A DNA stretch of 64,000 bases, from positions 1-64,000 of the forward strand of contig NZ_CAKZYF010000055.1 in assembly GCF_937884665.1 (NCBI RefSeq), given 5' to 3'. Below the pieces are notes generated by a model. That model saw nothing but the letters and a program-made list of their open reading frames with translations, was not told the origin of the DNA and ran no database searches. Both the position numbers and the translations under genes were made by a program. Source of the stretch: an uncultured Allomuricauda sp. Lineage in GTDB: Bacteria; Bacteroidota; Bacteroidia; Flavobacteriales; Flavobacteriaceae. Shown here in pieces: positions 3,111 through 59,847 of this stretch. Positions within the stretch are counted from its first letter, which is position 1. Every line of letters begins with the position of its first letter.

Positions 3111-3746
3111 TTATTTTCTTCCAAAATCTGCCGGTATTTCTCCCCAAGCCTTGGTCTCCCATTTCACCAACCTGGTGTTATAGGAATGATTTTTTAACCA
3201 TCCTTCTGCCCGGGCTATTAAACGGAACAACTCTTCATTCTTTTCGGTTTTTTTAAGTTTGGTCCCACACTTTTTTTTCTTTACCCACCCCATTGCTATT
3301 TTGGAGTCTGAATATAAAAAACGGTCACTTTTTTTGTTCTTCAAGAATGCAAGGCCATGCACAATGGCCAAAAATTCGCCAATATTATTGGTGCCTTGCT
3401 CAAAAGGGCCCTGTTTGAAAAGAACTTTTTTTGATTTGGTATCTACCCCTTGATATTCCATTTTTCCAGGATTTCCGCTGGAGGCCGCATCAACCGAAAT
3501 AGAGTTGAAATTAGGAGTCCCGATTCGGTCCAGGTCTTTTGCGGATAGGGGTTTCTTTTTGGTGCTTTTTCCTTTGTAGTCCTTATATTCCCCTTTGTAA
3601 GCCACTTTTGCTTCGATAAAATGGGGAAATGCCATGTACTGAGCACCTTTAAAACCTTCAATTTGTGCTTTGCAGTCATTCCAAGATTCATAAATCCCTG
3701 GTTTTTTACCCTTCCAGACGACGTAATACTTTTTAGTTTTCGCCAT
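3111..3746 (-). CDS. Viroplasmin-domain ribonuclease H
   Basis: The product cleaves the RNA strand of RNA-DNA hybrids. Residues 1-45 or so form the small caulimovirus-viroplasmin/RNase H1 N-terminal hybrid-binding domain (YYVVWKGKKPGIYESW). The catalytic domain follows, with acidic residues visible in SVDAASSGNPG, NIGEFLA and LYSDSKIAMGW and a late Asp in PADFGRK. Length is 211 residues, usual for the two-domain bacterial form. A basic linker (KGKSTKKKPLS) separates the domains. The start overlaps the end of purN by 14 bases, so the two genes are probably co-transcribed and translationally coupled. Confidence 0.9.
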   Translation of the reverse strand: MAKTKKYYVVWKGKKPGIYESWNDCKAQIEGFKGAQYMAFPHFIEAKVAYKGEYKDYKGKSTKKKPLSAKDLDRIGTPNFNSISVDAASSGNPGKMEYQGVDTKSKKVLFKQGPFEQGTNNIGEFLAIVHGLAFLKNKKSDRFLYSDSKIAMGWVKKKKCGTKLKKTEKNEELFRLIARAEGWLKNHSYNTRLVKWETKAWGEIPADFGRK

Positions 3747-4317
3747 TTTGAAGGTTTAGTAGTTTTTCGATGATCTTGGGAAAATGTTCATATTCAAGTT
3801 CGTGCACCTTTTGGGCTATGGTTTCCACACTGAAGGCGGGTTCGATCGTAACTTTGACCTGATGAATTATTGCTCCTTCGTCATAATTTTCATTTACATA
3901 ATGAATGGTGATTCCCGTCTCTTGCTCTCCGTTGTCCTTAACGGCTTGGTGAACCCGGTTTCCGTACATGCCTTTTCCACCATATTTGGGCAAAAGTGCT
4001 GGATGTAGGTTAATGATTTTTCCAGGGAAGGCGCGAACCATGTCCAAAGGTATTTTCCAAAGGAAACCTGCTAGCACGATCATATCCAAATCAAGTGCTT
4101 GTAATAGTCTGAGTACAGAGTCAGACCCAAAAAAGGCCTTTTTAGTAAAATAGAAAGCTGGGATGGATAATTCCTCAGCGCGATCCAGGACCTTTGCCAT
4201 TTTTTTATTGCTCAAAAAGGCCACTACCTTTACGGTTTCAATACCCTTAAAATAGGTAGTAATATGCTCTGCATTTGAACCGTTTCCTGAGGCGAGAACC
4301 GCTATTCGTTTAATCAA
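3733..4317 (-). CDS. purN: Phosphoribosylglycinamide formyltransferase
   Basis: PurN transfers a formyl group from 10-formyltetrahydrofolate to GAR in purine synthesis. The N-terminus ASGNGSNAEHI binds the phosphoribosyl group. The active-site segment INLHPALLPKYGG and the downstream Asp in NENYDEGAIIHQ are intact. Length (194 residues) is normal. No in-frame ATG lies upstream, so translation appears to start at TTG (4317). It runs divergently from acpP across a 156-base spacer and overlaps the RNase H gene downstream. The nearby purF-like gene makes a loose purine neighbourhood. Confidence 0.93.
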   Translation of the reverse strand: MIKRIAVLASGNGSNAEHITTYFKGIETVKVVAFLSNKKMAKVLDRAEELSIPAFYFTKKAFFGSDSVLRLLQALDLDMIVLAGFLWKIPLDMVRAFPGKIINLHPALLPKYGGKGMYGNRVHQAVKDNGEQETGITIHYVNENYDEGAIIHQVKVTIEPAFSVETIAQKVHELEYEHFPKIIEKLLNLQNGEN

Positions 4318-52532: not shown

Positions 52533-52729
52533 GTCGGTCTAGATTTTTACCATAGACTATCCTTGACCGCCATTTACAAATAATACCAGAGCAAATCTTT
52601 TTTGCATTATACGGGTTAAAAGCTAAACCTCAAGATTTCATCAATACAATTGAGAATATCTGATAATCAAAAAGTTATGATTTTGGCACAATGCTTGGTT
52701 TGTATGATTTAAATCAAAAGACTGGTATT

Positions 52730-53653
52730 ATGGGAAATGGAAAACTACTACTTGGATTATTGCTGATAAGTTTCTTGGCGACATCCTGTTACACCGAAGT
52801 GATTATAGAGGACGAATTTATTACGGAATCGCCCGTTAATACCGCCCTGGTATTGGAATCTTACGACTTATGGTATGTTGATATCAATGCAAGTCGTGGT
52901 AACGGAGAAGTTCCCTTTCTTCAGCGCGCATTTACCATTTCCTTTGATAGAGGGATTGTCTATGTAAATAACAATCTAGCGGGAATTGGGAAAACCGGTA
53001 ACGGTCTGGGTATTGATGTGGGCACGTATGGCACCTTGAATGGGGCCGTGGAAATAGACCACGATATTGATAGGCTTTGGTTATTGGAGGTTTTGGCCGT
53101 TAATAGCAACACTATTGAGCTTTACGACCCCAACTCCAATACCTTTTATTTACTAAGGGGATATCAAAGGAACAATTTTGATTATGATTTGGTTTTTTAT
53201 GACAACATCAATTATTTCTTACAGGAGTATGAAGTTTGGGAAAAAACATTCACCGGTGAAGTAGGGGCGATAAACGATTTTGATCAAGAGAACTACCTCC
53301 AGTTTTTATCAGGTGGGGGTCAGGGGGGATTTCGTTCTTCTGTTGATAACCTAGGATTGCCATTGGCGGAACTGGTCTGGGACTATGAAGGGATTTACGA
53401 AGTTTTTGATGTAGAAGGAGATACCACCCTAAAAACTTTAACATTGGATTACGATTTCCTGGGCAATGATTATTTTGAGCTGTACGTTATTAATGATAGT
53501 ACCATAGAGCTGTATCACGTTTCCAGTGGTACAATCTATGAGTTCACAGGAAGAGGATTTGTGCAGTACCTGAAGGCAAATCCAAAGACGGGAAAAAAAC
53601 GTGAAAAAGTTAAAAAGTCCATAATGAACGTAAAACGTCAACGTAAAATGTAA
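52730..53653 (+). CDS. Secreted lipoprotein with two similar beta domains
   Basis: This protein of about 307 residues starts at the ATG at 52730 (MGNGKLLLGLLLISFLATSC), giving a lipobox at LATSC; the track start at 52691 is less likely. Two lipocalin-like or beta-barrel halves each contain a Trp/Tyr motif with a terminal threonine-rich turn (NTIELYDPNSNTFYLLRGY and STIELYHVSSGTIYEFTGRG). The C-terminus is very basic (KTGKKREKVKKSIMNVKRQRKM). It may be an outer-membrane lipoprotein. Similar Flavobacteriaceae proteins are sometimes annotated as an adenylyltransferase, which nothing here supports. Confidence 0.75.
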   Translation: MGNGKLLLGLLLISFLATSCYTEVIIEDEFITESPVNTALVLESYDLWYVDINASRGNGEVPFLQRAFTISFDRGIVYVNNNLAGIGKTGNGLGIDVGTYGTLNGAVEIDHDIDRLWLLEVLAVNSNTIELYDPNSNTFYLLRGYQRNNFDYDLVFYDNINYFLQEYEVWEKTFTGEVGAINDFDQENYLQFLSGGGQGGFRSSVDNLGLPLAELVWDYEGIYEVFDVEGDTTLKTLTLDYDFLGNDYFELYVINDSTIELYHVSSGTIYEFTGRGFVQYLKANPKTGKKREKVKKSIMNVKRQRKM

Positions 53654-55405: not shown

Positions 55406-55993
55406 CTATTCGCTGACTGTTCCTCTAAAAACACTCACCTTGGGATTGATAGGGTTTCCCGTTGTTCTTCGCATTAAGGTGATCTGTCCTGTATGGTAGA
55501 TACAATCGGAGAGCATGCCATTCACCATGTTCCAATAGGGAAAAGAGGATTGCTTATCTCCGCGTTGAAAAACAACCACGAAATCTTCAAAGTCTTTCGC
55601 TTGTTTCCCAGCGATGGTTTCACTGGCGGCTTTCAAATTTTCCAGGGTCATTTTGCGTAGTTGTTCATAGGGATATCCCGAAAAATCGGTTGGTCGGACA
55701 TTTGGGGTTGCCGACGGGGCATTTAGGATCATTTCGGACATACCATAAATATGCTGCAACGTTTCTAAAACAGTCCTGGATTCTTCTGTAGGCCGATAAG
55801 CCAAGTCTTTGGGGGTCAATCCTTCCGTGGCCCAATGGTAACGAAAGCCCAAACCATCTATCATTCGAGAAACCAGATTTCCGGGACTGTAATCCGCCGG
55901 ATACTCCGGGATTTCCCGAAAGGGTAGTTCTTGTGATTTCATAGTGATTGAAAAAAATAAAACAAGGAGGACAATGGGTAACTTTTGTATCAT
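55406..55993 (-). CDS. Exported DinB-fold protein
   Basis: This 195-residue protein has an N-terminal signal peptide (LPIVLLVLFFSITMKSQ) and a DinB/YfiT four-helix metal-binding domain (RYHWATEGLTPKDLAYRPTEESRTVLETLQHIYGMSEMIL and CIYHTGQITLMRRTTG). The His residues in LQHIYG and YHTGQI match the family metal site. Export is unusual for a family that is mostly cytoplasmic. It abuts the stop of the upstream 242-residue gene (TAGATG), so it belongs to that operon. Function unknown. Confidence 0.75.
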   Translation of the reverse strand: MIQKLPIVLLVLFFSITMKSQELPFREIPEYPADYSPGNLVSRMIDGLGFRYHWATEGLTPKDLAYRPTEESRTVLETLQHIYGMSEMILNAPSATPNVRPTDFSGYPYEQLRKMTLENLKAASETIAGKQAKDFEDFVVVFQRGDKQSSFPYWNMVNGMLSDCIYHTGQITLMRRTTGNPINPKVSVFRGTVSE

Positions 55994-56722
55994 CTAATGC
56001 AATTTTCGTGGACTCCAAACTTCATAGATAGGTTTTCCTCTGCTACTTTCCCCGGAATGGTGCCAGTTGCCCTCTTTTATCTTAAAATCAAAAGAAAGAC
56101 TGGCTCCTACCCTGGAATTGTCCTTCGAGAAAAAATCAATGTTTTCTGTATATTTTCCATTTTCCGTGGTATACGTGCCACCTCCCGTACCCATAAATTG
56201 TTGGGTCTCGGTGTTGTAAGCAATCCATTGAAAACGCGTTCCAGAAAGAATTTTCATGGTTTTTCGAGGTCGATCGGTATCCCTCTGCTGTATTTTCCCA
56301 TCCCGCATTCTTCCTGAAATCAACCAGGCTCCTGATAATTTTCCTGGAGTTCCATCATCAATTTGGGTCCAAATCGTATCTCCCATGCGAATTTGATTAT
56401 CCACGAATTGGTATGCTTCCTTACGGCTTGTACCAACGCGGCTCGGATCAAAAGAAGCGAATTCATAAGTGCAGTCCAGGTTATTGTTCTGTACTTTGCA
56501 AGTACCGCCCCAAGTACCCATGAACGCTCCTGTTTCTTTCTCAAAAAATGCCTCTGCAATATGTCCATCAGAAATAATGATGACATGATGTATGTTGATA
56601 CCTTTTTCATTCTTTAGAGAAGTTTCCCATGCCCCTTCCGGCGATTGGGATCGCAAGATGGCCCACCCAAAAAGTAGGGCAAACATCCATATACAGGGTT
56701 TAATTACTGAAATCATCGGCAT
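55994..56722 (-). CDS. Exported hypothetical protein with internal domain duplication
   Basis: This 242-residue protein has a signal peptide (CIWMFALLFGWAILRSQ). The mature part is two related beta-rich halves: GAWETSLKN, GAFMGTWGGTCK and SRVGTSRK in the first, and GAWLISGRM, QQFMGTGGGTYT and SRVGASLSF in the second. The repeated GAW, FMGTxGGT and SRVG elements indicate duplication of a lipocalin-like unit. The start overlaps the HTH-membrane gene by 17-23 bases (ATG at 56722 or 56716). It is likely a periplasmic or secreted binding protein. Confidence 0.7.
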   Translation of the reverse strand: MPMISVIKPCIWMFALLFGWAILRSQSPEGAWETSLKNEKGINIHHVIIISDGHIAEAFFEKETGAFMGTWGGTCKVQNNNLDCTYEFASFDPSRVGTSRKEAYQFVDNQIRMGDTIWTQIDDGTPGKLSGAWLISGRMRDGKIQQRDTDRPRKTMKILSGTRFQWIAYNTETQQFMGTGGGTYTTENGKYTENIDFFSKDNSRVGASLSFDFKIKEGNWHHSGESSRGKPIYEVWSPRKLH

Positions 56723-57980
56723 AGCGGGTGTTACCTTCCAAATCCTTTAAATATACATAATCCAAAGACCCACTTCCTGTGAATGTGAAAATTAATCCCA
56801 TAATATCGCCTTGTGCCCCTGTAAATTGGTTTTCTAAACACAAAGTATCATTGATATAAAATTGTACGATATTGTTGTTACTTATGATTTTTAAATGTTG
56901 CCATTCATCCATATTGGCCCCCAGTAAAGAGAAATCGTTCTCAGAACCCATAAAAAAGTTATCGCCCAATTTTAAGTTGAGATTGCTTTCACATCCTTTG
57001 TCTATGATTCCAACCCAAGACGCGTCTTTTTCATCGATCCATTTTACTTCCAAAAAGGGACAGGTTAGGTTTTTCGTGTTTTCGAAGCGAACTTTGGTTT
57101 CCAAAACAAAGGCATCGCTTGCCAATCCCTTAAAGTCACGTACGTTGAAGTAGGATAAGATCAAATTTTGGTTCAGGCCAAAGCCAAGTGCTTCACGCGT
57201 AGTGTTCTGAAGTGTTAATTTTCCATCGGATTGGATTTCCGGGGTAGCGGCATATTTCGGAATTTGCTGCATAGGGTTCGATTTTGCGGTCGCGAGCCAA
57301 CCATTCGTTTGAATGTGAATCCGCTCTTTTTGGATAATACTGTCATTGGCGATTAATCTGGCCCAATGGAATCCCGGGTAATAATAAATTTGGGAAAAGG
57401 TTTTCTTTTGGGGGTCAATCCGGAATTTGTGCATTGGATTCCAAGAGCGTTGGATAAAAAAACTGTCGGCCTTGGTCTGGGTGAGGTCATACGAAAAAAT
57501 GACAGAATTGGGGACATTAAAGGCAACGGTCTTATTTGCCGAAAAAACAACATCTTTAGGGACTTCCATTTCTGGTTCGCCACGGATCAACGAAATCAAA
57601 AAATACATCAAAACAATTGTGCCCAACACGGCAACTACCGGAATTATTTTCGTAAATCGATTGGATTGGGCAACAGTTTTATAGGGTTTTTGGATTTTTG
57701 AAAGTTGTTCACGTCGATAACTGTTCCAGTTTTCATGACCAAGTAAGGAAACCAAGGCATTTAATGTGCTGATATGTGGTAAGCTGGAATATTCATTTTT
57801 CCAAAGCCGTTTCATCGTGGACAAACTGATTTGAATGTTTTTTTTCTCGTCCATAAGGTCAATGAGATACTGCAAATCACGTTGGCCCAGAGCAGTATTT
57901 GAACCTACCTTATCTGGAAAATAGCGCTTTTCAATGTCTTGTAAACACTGGTTTACATGTGCTCTATCATGGGATATCAT
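56700..57980 (-). CDS. Membrane-tethered HTH-like protein with periplasmic jelly-roll domain
   Basis: This 426-residue protein starts with about 95 helical residues (QRDLQYLIDLMDEKKNIQIS, LSTMKRLWKNEYSSLPHIS, TLNALVSLLGHENWNSYRRE) that resemble a helix-turn-helix DNA-binding module. A single transmembrane helix near 112-131 (IIPVVAVLGTIVLMYFLISLI) follows. The periplasmic part is about 290 residues, ending in a LamG/DUF1080-like jelly roll (VLETKVRFENTKNL, EWQHLKIISNNNIVQFYIND). It is therefore a candidate transmembrane one-component regulator. It is divergent from a secreted protein with a similar jelly-roll domain, 101 bases away, and leads two exported-protein genes. Confidence 0.75.
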   Translation of the reverse strand: MISHDRAHVNQCLQDIEKRYFPDKVGSNTALGQRDLQYLIDLMDEKKNIQISLSTMKRLWKNEYSSLPHISTLNALVSLLGHENWNSYRREQLSKIQKPYKTVAQSNRFTKIIPVVAVLGTIVLMYFLISLIRGEPEMEVPKDVVFSANKTVAFNVPNSVIFSYDLTQTKADSFFIQRSWNPMHKFRIDPQKKTFSQIYYYPGFHWARLIANDSIIQKERIHIQTNGWLATAKSNPMQQIPKYAATPEIQSDGKLTLQNTTREALGFGLNQNLILSYFNVRDFKGLASDAFVLETKVRFENTKNLTCPFLEVKWIDEKDASWVGIIDKGCESNLNLKLGDNFFMGSENDFSLLGANMDEWQHLKIISNNNIVQFYINDTLCLENQFTGAQGDIMGLIFTFTGSGSLDYVYLKDLEGNTRYADDFSN

Positions 57981-58081
57981 GACCGTATATATTTTTAATT
58001 GGACGCGTTTTGAATCTTAAATAAACGGTTTTTGGTGGTTTGTTACAGTGTTGATGTTCGGATTTTTGACAAAAAACAAAA

Positions 58082-59215
58082 ATGGATGCTCAAAAGATAA
58101 AATCAAAACTAGTATTTACAGTGACGTTGGTGTTGATTCTGAATCAGATGGTACTTGGCCAAGCCGTCCCATTTATCTCTGAAAACTGGAGAATAATTGA
58201 CAACGAAAACAACCAAAATTTAGATTTTCATACCACAACCTATAAGGGAGAAAATGCATTGCGACTGGGGAGGCACAAAATAGCTCGGTTGGAAGGCAAG
58301 ACCTACGAAAATTTTGTATTGGAGGTTGATATTGCCGGAAAGGCAATGCCAGGTATTGGTTTCCATGCATCAGACTTATGGGACTACGAATTTCTGTATT
58401 GTCGCGTATTTTCTGGAGGAAAAACGGATGCCCTTCAGTATGCCCCGGTCTATAACGGCGCTTTGCCCTGGCAGCTATATAACGCACCCAATTACGAGAC
58501 TATGGCAGTATTTGAACCCAAAGAATGGTTTCACCTAAAGATAGAGGTATATGGAAATCTTATGCGCGTATTTGTTGGAGAAGACGATGAACCGGAAATG
58601 GAAGTTGCACTTTTACAAAAAGAGGCGGAGAAAGGGGCAATATTTTTAAAGACCAGTTTTGCTGAAGCCTATTTTGCAAACCTGCGTATAAATCGTTTGG
58701 ATGTTCCTTTTTCCATACGTAATGAAGAAAAGTTACAGCAGTTCTTGACCGATTGGGAAATTTCCGAACAACTACAAGGGAACCTATATAGCCAGAGACA
58801 GTTCTACCAATGGTTCAACCAAGCCAAAGAGGCGCATACATGGAAAGTCATCAAAGCAGCAAAAAATGGCATTGTCAATTTGGCGCAATATTTTGATCAC
58901 CCCAAGGAATCTGTTTTTGCCCGAACAAACATTCCAGCTTCAGAAGCTAAAAAGGTCACTTTGGCTTTTGATTATACCCAAGTTTTATTAATTGTGTTGA
59001 ATGACCAAGTATTATTTTTTGGACGCGAACTGGATTCGGACAATTTTATGCGGATGATGGATGGAGAACAAAAGATAGACTTATCACTCAAAAAGGGAGA
59101 TAATACGTTGGTCTTCTGGATACGGTCCGATGATGAATGGCAAGAAGCCAACCCCCGTTATCTCGGTAGGAAACAGGCGATGAATTGGGGATTTATTGCC
59201 AAGGTTGAGGAGTAG
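58082..59215 (+). CDS. Exported protein with DUF1080/LamG-like domain
   Basis: This 377-residue exported protein has a signal peptide (LVFTVTLVLILNQMVLGQ). A beta-sandwich (about 30-215) shows NFVLEVDIAGKAMPGIGFHASDLWDYEFLYCRVFSGG and EWFHLKIEVYGNLMRVFVG. The C-terminal half includes YFDHPKESVFARTNIPA and KKGDNTLVFWIRSDDEW, a second jelly-roll of glycosidase type. It may bind or modify a carbohydrate. It shares a 101-base divergent region with the HTH-membrane protein gene, suggesting that the regulator controls it. Confidence 0.7.
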   Translation: MDAQKIKSKLVFTVTLVLILNQMVLGQAVPFISENWRIIDNENNQNLDFHTTTYKGENALRLGRHKIARLEGKTYENFVLEVDIAGKAMPGIGFHASDLWDYEFLYCRVFSGGKTDALQYAPVYNGALPWQLYNAPNYETMAVFEPKEWFHLKIEVYGNLMRVFVGEDDEPEMEVALLQKEAEKGAIFLKTSFAEAYFANLRINRLDVPFSIRNEEKLQQFLTDWEISEQLQGNLYSQRQFYQWFNQAKEAHTWKVIKAAKNGIVNLAQYFDHPKESVFARTNIPASEAKKVTLAFDYTQVLLIVLNDQVLFFGRELDSDNFMRMMDGEQKIDLSLKKGDNTLVFWIRSDDEWQEANPRYLGRKQAMNWGFIAKVEE

Positions 59216-59343: not shown

Positions 59344-59847
59344 ATGAAAAAATCGATTTTTTTGCTTCTAGCTTCGTTTTTGATGGTCATTATAGGTTGT
59401 GGTGAGAAAAAGACGGAAAAAAAGGAGGAGGGTTTCCAAGTAAACCGCGCCAAGAAGGAAGAAAAAAAGGAAGTTGATGAAAATGTAATTTCACTTTCAT
59501 CCAATGATTTGATGCAGTTTGACAAATCTGAACTTAAAGTAAAGGCGGGAAAAAAGGTTACACTTACCTTGAGACATACCGGAGAAATGGACAAAATGGT
59601 AATGGGTCATAATTTTGTCCTTTTGGAGGCGGGTACGGATGTTGGCGAGTTTGCTGCTGATGCAGCTGTTGCCAGGGAATCAGAGTATATCCCAGAAAGT
59701 GACGCCATCCTGGCCTACACGAAGTTGATAGGTGGTGGTGAGGTAACAAGCATCACTTTTGATCCCCCTGCTCCGGGCACTTATGATTTTATTTGCAGCT
59801 TTCCAGGACATTATGGAATCATGAACGGGAAGTTCATTGTAGAGTAA
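59344..59847 (+). CDS. Azurin-like type 1 copper lipoprotein
   Basis: This 167-residue blue copper protein is a lipoprotein (LLLASFLMVIIGC, lipobox at IIGC). A lysine/glutamate-rich linker follows (EKKTEKKEEG), then the cupredoxin domain. The copper ligands are intact: His in MGHNFVLL and the Cys, His and Met of FICSFPGHYGIMNG. Azurin carries electrons between periplasmic oxidoreductases. It contrasts with the incomplete site of the 11239-11628 protein. Its partner enzyme is not in the window. Confidence 0.93.
   Translation: MKKSIFLLLASFLMVIIGCGEKKTEKKEEGFQVNRAKKEEKKEVDENVISLSSNDLMQFDKSELKVKAGKKVTLTLRHTGEMDKMVMGHNFVLLEAGTDVGEFAADAAVARESEYIPESDAILAYTKLIGGGEVTSITFDPPAPGTYDFICSFPGHYGIMNGKFIVE

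Follow-up and report, generated by a model that had tools for sequence, protein, structure and literature searches.

We identified a likely one-gene transmembrane transcription regulator, paired with a dedicated divergent target, in a 64-kb stretch of the 4.2 Mb genome of an uncultured Allomuricauda species (the window). We hold this reading with good confidence for either sign of regulation. The regulator gene (56700–57980, minus strand) encodes a 426-residue protein with a helix-turn-helix (HTH) domain, a membrane helix, an immunoglobulin (Ig)-like domain and a ConA/LamG-like domain. Its target (58082–59215, plus strand) is presumed to be the gene for an exported DUF1080/LamG protein, which has its own C-terminal domain. 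The evidence is computational and comprises the domain layout and topology, the divergent gene pair, an operator array that recurs across the family and the single site of that array in the genome. No description of this regulator family was found in the open-access literature. The locus had been singled out in an original prediction made from the DNA letters; the open reading frame list and the sequence bear out its four genes, which all open exactly at the positions it gave, and the 101 bases (57981–58081) it placed between the regulator and the exported DUF1080/LamG gene.

An AlphaFold model of the regulator built on 41 relatives (pLDDT 84) has six helices within residues 2–96, a membrane helix at residues 113–131 and then two beta domains, an Ig-like sandwich (~142–233) and a jelly roll (~234–425). 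The HTH, membrane helix and jelly roll of the original prediction are thus present, and the model adds the Ig-like sandwich that it had not separated. The N-terminal lambda-repressor-like DNA-binding domain (residues 3–104; 57669–57974, minus strand) was also modelled alone, again with pLDDT 84, and lambda-repressor-like domains top its Foldseek search of solved structures, with TP901-1 CI as the best match (probability 0.89) and SinR, EspR and C.Esp1396I also matched. Structure prediction therefore agrees, at weak E-values, with the DNA-binding fold that had been expected within the first ~95 residues. S52, T55, K57 and R58 are invariant among the 41 relatives, the last three within the predicted recognition helix (residues 53–60, LSTMKRLW; 57801–57824, minus strand). 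None of the 41 full-length members has a Pfam HTH match; the isolated domain weakly matches HTH_26 (E = 0.1).

The membrane helix (57588–57644, minus strand) appears to be the only one, as 50 of 56 representative regulators have one hydrophobic segment. Lysine and arginine are in excess before versus after the helix in 44 of the 56, and because these residues are richer ahead of it the N-terminus appears to be cytoplasmic and the C-terminus periplasmic. This predicted topology anticipates what is seen, with positive charges N-terminal of the helix and invariant cysteines C-terminal of it (Cys307 and Cys330 among the 41 members; the HTH domain has few cysteines). The Ig-like domain (57282–57557, minus strand) contains invariant P157, N158, F162, Q177, W180, Y199, G203 and W228. 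The C-terminal domain with the two cysteines (56703–57281, minus strand) matches, by Foldseek, ConA-like proteins that bind or act on carbohydrates, such as CBM66 and 3-keto-glycoside hydratases. PF06439 is sub-threshold or weak in 14 of the 41 members, and the ectodomain of the window regulator scores 15.6 bits against a cut-off of 26.8, so it is not classed as a 3-keto-disaccharide hydrolase. An hhalign comparison of the regulator ectodomain with the LamG domain of the partner is weak (probability 55%), and searches of PDB sequences with the regulator, the regulator profile and the partner profile returned nothing significant.

The same N-terminal HTH domain also fronts STAND/NACHT-like NTPases at loci L105 (1444–3231) and L106 (1420–3186), where nSTAND and NACHT are sub-threshold; this suggests that the same reader serves further regulators or proteins of a defence type. 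Related proteins with an HTH, a membrane helix and a CarboxypepD-like part occur at L108 (913–1806 and 1858–2781) and L110 (628–1791). The HTH/CarboxypepD-like protein of L108 is divergent by 51 bases from an apparent DUF4349-type lipoprotein gene, and this pair is perhaps a sister circuit.

The window protein alone, used as query against named genomes, gave no match; an alignment query gave at least 345 relatives, the best of which lie in Flavobacteriaceae, Saprospiraceae, Chitinophagaceae, Cytophagales and Mucilaginibacter. The closest relatives of the window regulator are Allomuricauda/Flagellimonas records. Within the genus, 43/61 genomes carry one to three relatives; in a random draw from the phylum relatives occur in 11/297 genomes, and the family is therefore widespread but patchy. 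We examined 141 loci with a regulator relative (~120 distinct, some genomes being present in two collections). The neighbouring gene is divergent from the regulator in 138 of them, a recurrence that is not due to chance. A signal-peptide-like start is found in 136/138 divergent partners, whose start codons were set by rule and may be off at some loci, and 119/138 match the LamG/DUF1080-type partner profile. The window partner is itself a member of the PF06439 (3-keto-disaccharide hydrolase, DUF1080) family by score (32.8 bits, cut-off 26.8), with putative hydrolase or lyase activity on 3-keto-glycosides. Elsewhere in the same genome (G000:C204:9791-11059) one 487-residue frame contains two strong tandem DUF1080 domains.

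Among the remaining partners are an alpha/beta hydrolase, an Ig protein, small membrane proteins and products with a beta-lactamase or beta-helix fold. Since some of these folds are unrelated to that of the sensor, the similarity of sensor and target folds on which the original prediction drew is not a needed element of the system. At L045 (4519–5640) a protein of beta-lactamase fold (PF00144, E 8e-37), whose signal looks like that of a lipoprotein, takes the place of the LamG protein. At L174, L183 and L188–L190 (~3300–3900) the replacement is a small hydrophobic protein starting like NKFFKTVLLTGLFVGTTD, and the promoters keep TGAAC-like words. A distant regulator relative at L088 (5898–7148) has no divergent partner, and its Ig-like region weakly matches PKD_4. 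Distances among partners and among regulators correlate (Mantel r 0.71), as is expected of co-inherited neighbours, and this is no evidence of contact.

The intergenic regions shared by regulator and partner (median 124 base pairs, bp) contain a repeat array. In 56 non-redundant regions, taken from regulators less than 60% identical, self-similarity peaks at 10 bp (z = 10.9), 11 bp (z = 11.6) and 22 bp (z = 6.8), with no peak at other spacings between 5 and 25 bp; other intergenic regions of the same loci have no peaks at 10, 11 or 22 bp. The word TGAAC occurs 65 times on the coding strand of the partner, versus 13.5 expected, and its complement 6 times, versus 5.8 expected. The half-sites are thus arranged head to tail on one strand only. 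Pairs of TGA[AC][CT] number 25 at 10 bp and 24 at 11 bp, with 0.3 expected for each. Regulators of the window's HTH subclass are associated with an 11-bp unit, TGAaCgnnaaa, and those of a second subclass, marked by a one-residue insertion past the recognition helix (WG[KR]V), with a 10-bp unit, TGAAcaaacT; subclass tracks period at 46:3 and 30:2. The array is retained where the partner gene belongs to another, non-LamG family. A stricter pattern for the second subclass gave five matches in ten related genomes, all beside a regulator, and its reversed control gave none. A degenerate pattern run genus-wide gave 15 matches, 6 of them at regulator promoters, versus 7 for its control, and was set aside as too loose to define a regulon outside the window's clade.

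To rank sites in the window we trained a unit model on the 11-bp subclass minus the window's clade and ran it across the whole window on both strands. The interval 58000–58032 ranks first in the 64 kb with 22.65 bits, and 14.1 bits is the highest score of any unrelated site. This predicted operator (plus strand) consists of three head-to-tail 11-bp units, TGGACgcgttt, TGAATcttaaa and TAAACggtttt, and the degenerate pattern of the array occurs only once in the genome, at this position. The shared operator was therefore found computationally inside the very interval, 57981–58081, that had been proposed for DNA binding. A possible degenerate fourth unit, TGGTGgtttgt (58033–58043, plus strand), read from the sequence, runs into the TTG of a putative promoter and does not raise the motif score when included (22.4 bits). 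The putative partner promoter (58040–58068, plus strand) comprises TTG (58040–58042), 18 bases and GATTTTTG (58061–58068), is conserved in the five closest orthologous regions aligned, and fits the Bacteroidota −33/−7 promoter consensus. The array thus ends just upstream of the putative −33 TTG, with GATTTTTG as the putative −7 element, and begins ~20 bases from the regulator start codon.

From the operator statistics and the co-occurrence of array and gene we infer that the regulator binds the array. In the mechanism we propose, the cytoplasmic lambda-repressor-like domain would bind the TGAAC-like half-sites at 58000–58032, one per helical turn, and several regulator copies would line up on a single face of the DNA, head to tail. 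The periplasmic Ig and ConA/LamG-like part would sense a ligand; given the ConA/LamG-like domain, a glycan or a component of the envelope is the most likely one. Ligand would alter the clustering or conformation of the regulator across the membrane and hence its assembly on DNA. This would switch the divergent gene for the exported LamG/DUF1080 protein and, probably, the operon of the regulator itself. The end of the array immediately upstream of the putative −33 box leads us to favour activation of the divergent gene over repression, and its start so near the regulator start codon speaks for autoregulation.

Several results weigh against this reading. The Foldseek E-values of the HTH domain are weak, with none significant (best 0.54). 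A strict TGA[AC][CT] pair at 10 or 11 bp is lacking in 25/56 regions. The window array is degenerate, and its self-similarity taken alone is unremarkable (10 of 22). The consensus TTG-N17-23-TAnnTTTG is not enriched family-wide. Because one change on the ectodomain tree accounts for the link between subclass and period, we dropped it as independent covariation. Finally, the choice of a glycan or envelope component as the putative ligand draws on fold resemblance.

The alternative that survives best differs in sign only: the regulator would be a repressor that sits on the array and keeps the divergent gene off, to be freed by a periplasmic ligand or by a shortage of the exported partner. Lambda-repressor-like domains often repress, and the array lies near both starts, with median distances of 28–41 bp to the regulator start and 57–60 bp to the partner start. 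Its place upstream of the putative −33 box is, however, an activator position, and CadC, ToxR and similar membrane regulators are mainly activators, so that repression seems to us a real but minority prospect. Considerably less probable is that the array belongs to another, soluble regulator and that the membrane protein, an envelope protein under the same control, uses its HTH for something else. Half-site cores that are alike in paralogues with different ectodomains could also be explained by such a shared outside regulator, but each genome has a single copy of the array, at the regulator promoter and nowhere else, it stays with the regulator gene after partner replacement, and its period follows the HTH subclass, albeit via one change. 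That the protein is a RodZ-like scaffold, whose HTH would link a cytoskeletal or envelope machine to the periplasmic beta domain and read no DNA, is very improbable: RodZ shares the general layout of HTH, membrane helix and periplasmic beta domain, but the 41 members have no Pfam match to RodZ domains, the polar residues of the recognition helix are invariant, the divergent target gene is constant, and a repeat array lies in the common promoter.

Returning to the membrane-anchored regulator, a broader generalization can be put forward only tentatively, and we would sooner doubt it than assert it. The window protein would represent a phylum-wide, hitherto undescribed family of membrane-anchored lambda-repressor-like regulators in which ligand clusters the protein in the membrane, a row of regulators forms on an array with one half-site per turn, and the closed circuit has a single dedicated divergent target, whose product can change without loss of the operator.

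Two further genes follow the regulator on the minus strand in a tightly packed order. The first (55994–56722) encodes an exported protein of two related repeats (39% identity across 51 residues between its halves) that is lipocalin-like, with a weak DUF4488 match, and overlaps the regulator 3′ end by 23 bases. The second (55406–55993), at the end of the putative regulator operon, begins one base past the stop codon of the first and encodes an exported DinB-fold protein (PF05163, 24.1 bits, cut-off 23). This overlap and abutment are as the original prediction described. Its expectation of a conserved neighbourhood holds phylum-wide for the regulator and divergent gene and, for the other two genes, only beside close orthologues. 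The two-repeat gene adjoins the regulator in those loci, and the DinB gene is present there as well, in some with genes in between. We therefore rejected a conserved four-gene cluster, as beyond the window's clade only the pair is conserved and the two-repeat and DinB genes are clade-specific. Beside the cluster, 59344–59847 encodes an azurin-type cupredoxin lipoprotein (TIGR02695, 111.8 bits, cut-off 105.1). Elsewhere in the window, 52691–53653 encodes a putative lipoprotein of 320 residues with no Pfam or NCBIfam match, which adjoins SulP in many relatives within the genus.

To the Bacteroidota, which matter for the turnover of polysaccharides in the sea and the gut, these results add a family of one-component membrane sensors that has apparently gone unannotated. 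The operator is defined precisely and the target gene is named, so that the proposal can be tested directly. There appears to be one array per regulator and one target in each genome, a layout that makes for a simple way to find ligands of DUF1080/LamG proteins and lends itself, as a compact module, to the engineering of periplasmic sensors. A 2023 survey of transmembrane transcription regulators, the group of ToxR, TcpP and CadC, relied on Pfam DNA-binding models (PMC10269533). A survey of that design would probably miss the present family because its HTH has no Pfam match above cut-off.

By layout, the regulator belongs to the transmembrane transcription regulators. It is predicted to join a DNA-binding domain and a membrane helix in one chain, by its fold and hydrophobic helix, and to place the DNA-binding end in the cytoplasm and the sensor outside, by the positive-inside bias in 44/56 representatives and the ectodomain cysteines. 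ToxR, TcpP and CadC are likewise single chains in which one membrane helix joins a DNA-binding domain in the cytoplasm to a sensor in the periplasm. They work at the membrane, and the gene they control is often nearby or divergent, as is proposed for the window regulator. Their DNA-binding domains are winged-helix, whereas that of the window regulator is lambda-repressor-like and its operator is a head-to-tail array of 10- or 11-bp units. We rejected membership in the ToxR/CadC subfamily, as none of the 41 members has a Pfam match to its winged-helix domain, Trans_reg_C, and the fold matches are lambda-repressor-like. RodZ resembles the regulator in its order of domains, but the 41 members lack Pfam matches to HTH_25 and the RodZ C-terminal domains, and the regulator goes together with an array in its promoter and with a divergent target. 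The hybrid two-component and FecR/extracytoplasmic function sigma systems of Bacteroidota also sense across the envelope, often glycans; kinase, receiver, sigma-factor and FecR domains were found neither in the regulator nor in the window proteins scanned beside it. Among PF06439 proteins, the partner is a member by score and the C-terminal domain of the regulator is alike in fold only, under the cut-off. The closest likeness in operator design is to OmpR/PhoB-type operators, in which head-to-tail half-sites about one helical turn apart are read by several copies of the protein. There the reader is a winged-helix response regulator; the predicted reader of the present array is a lambda-repressor-like domain anchored in the membrane.

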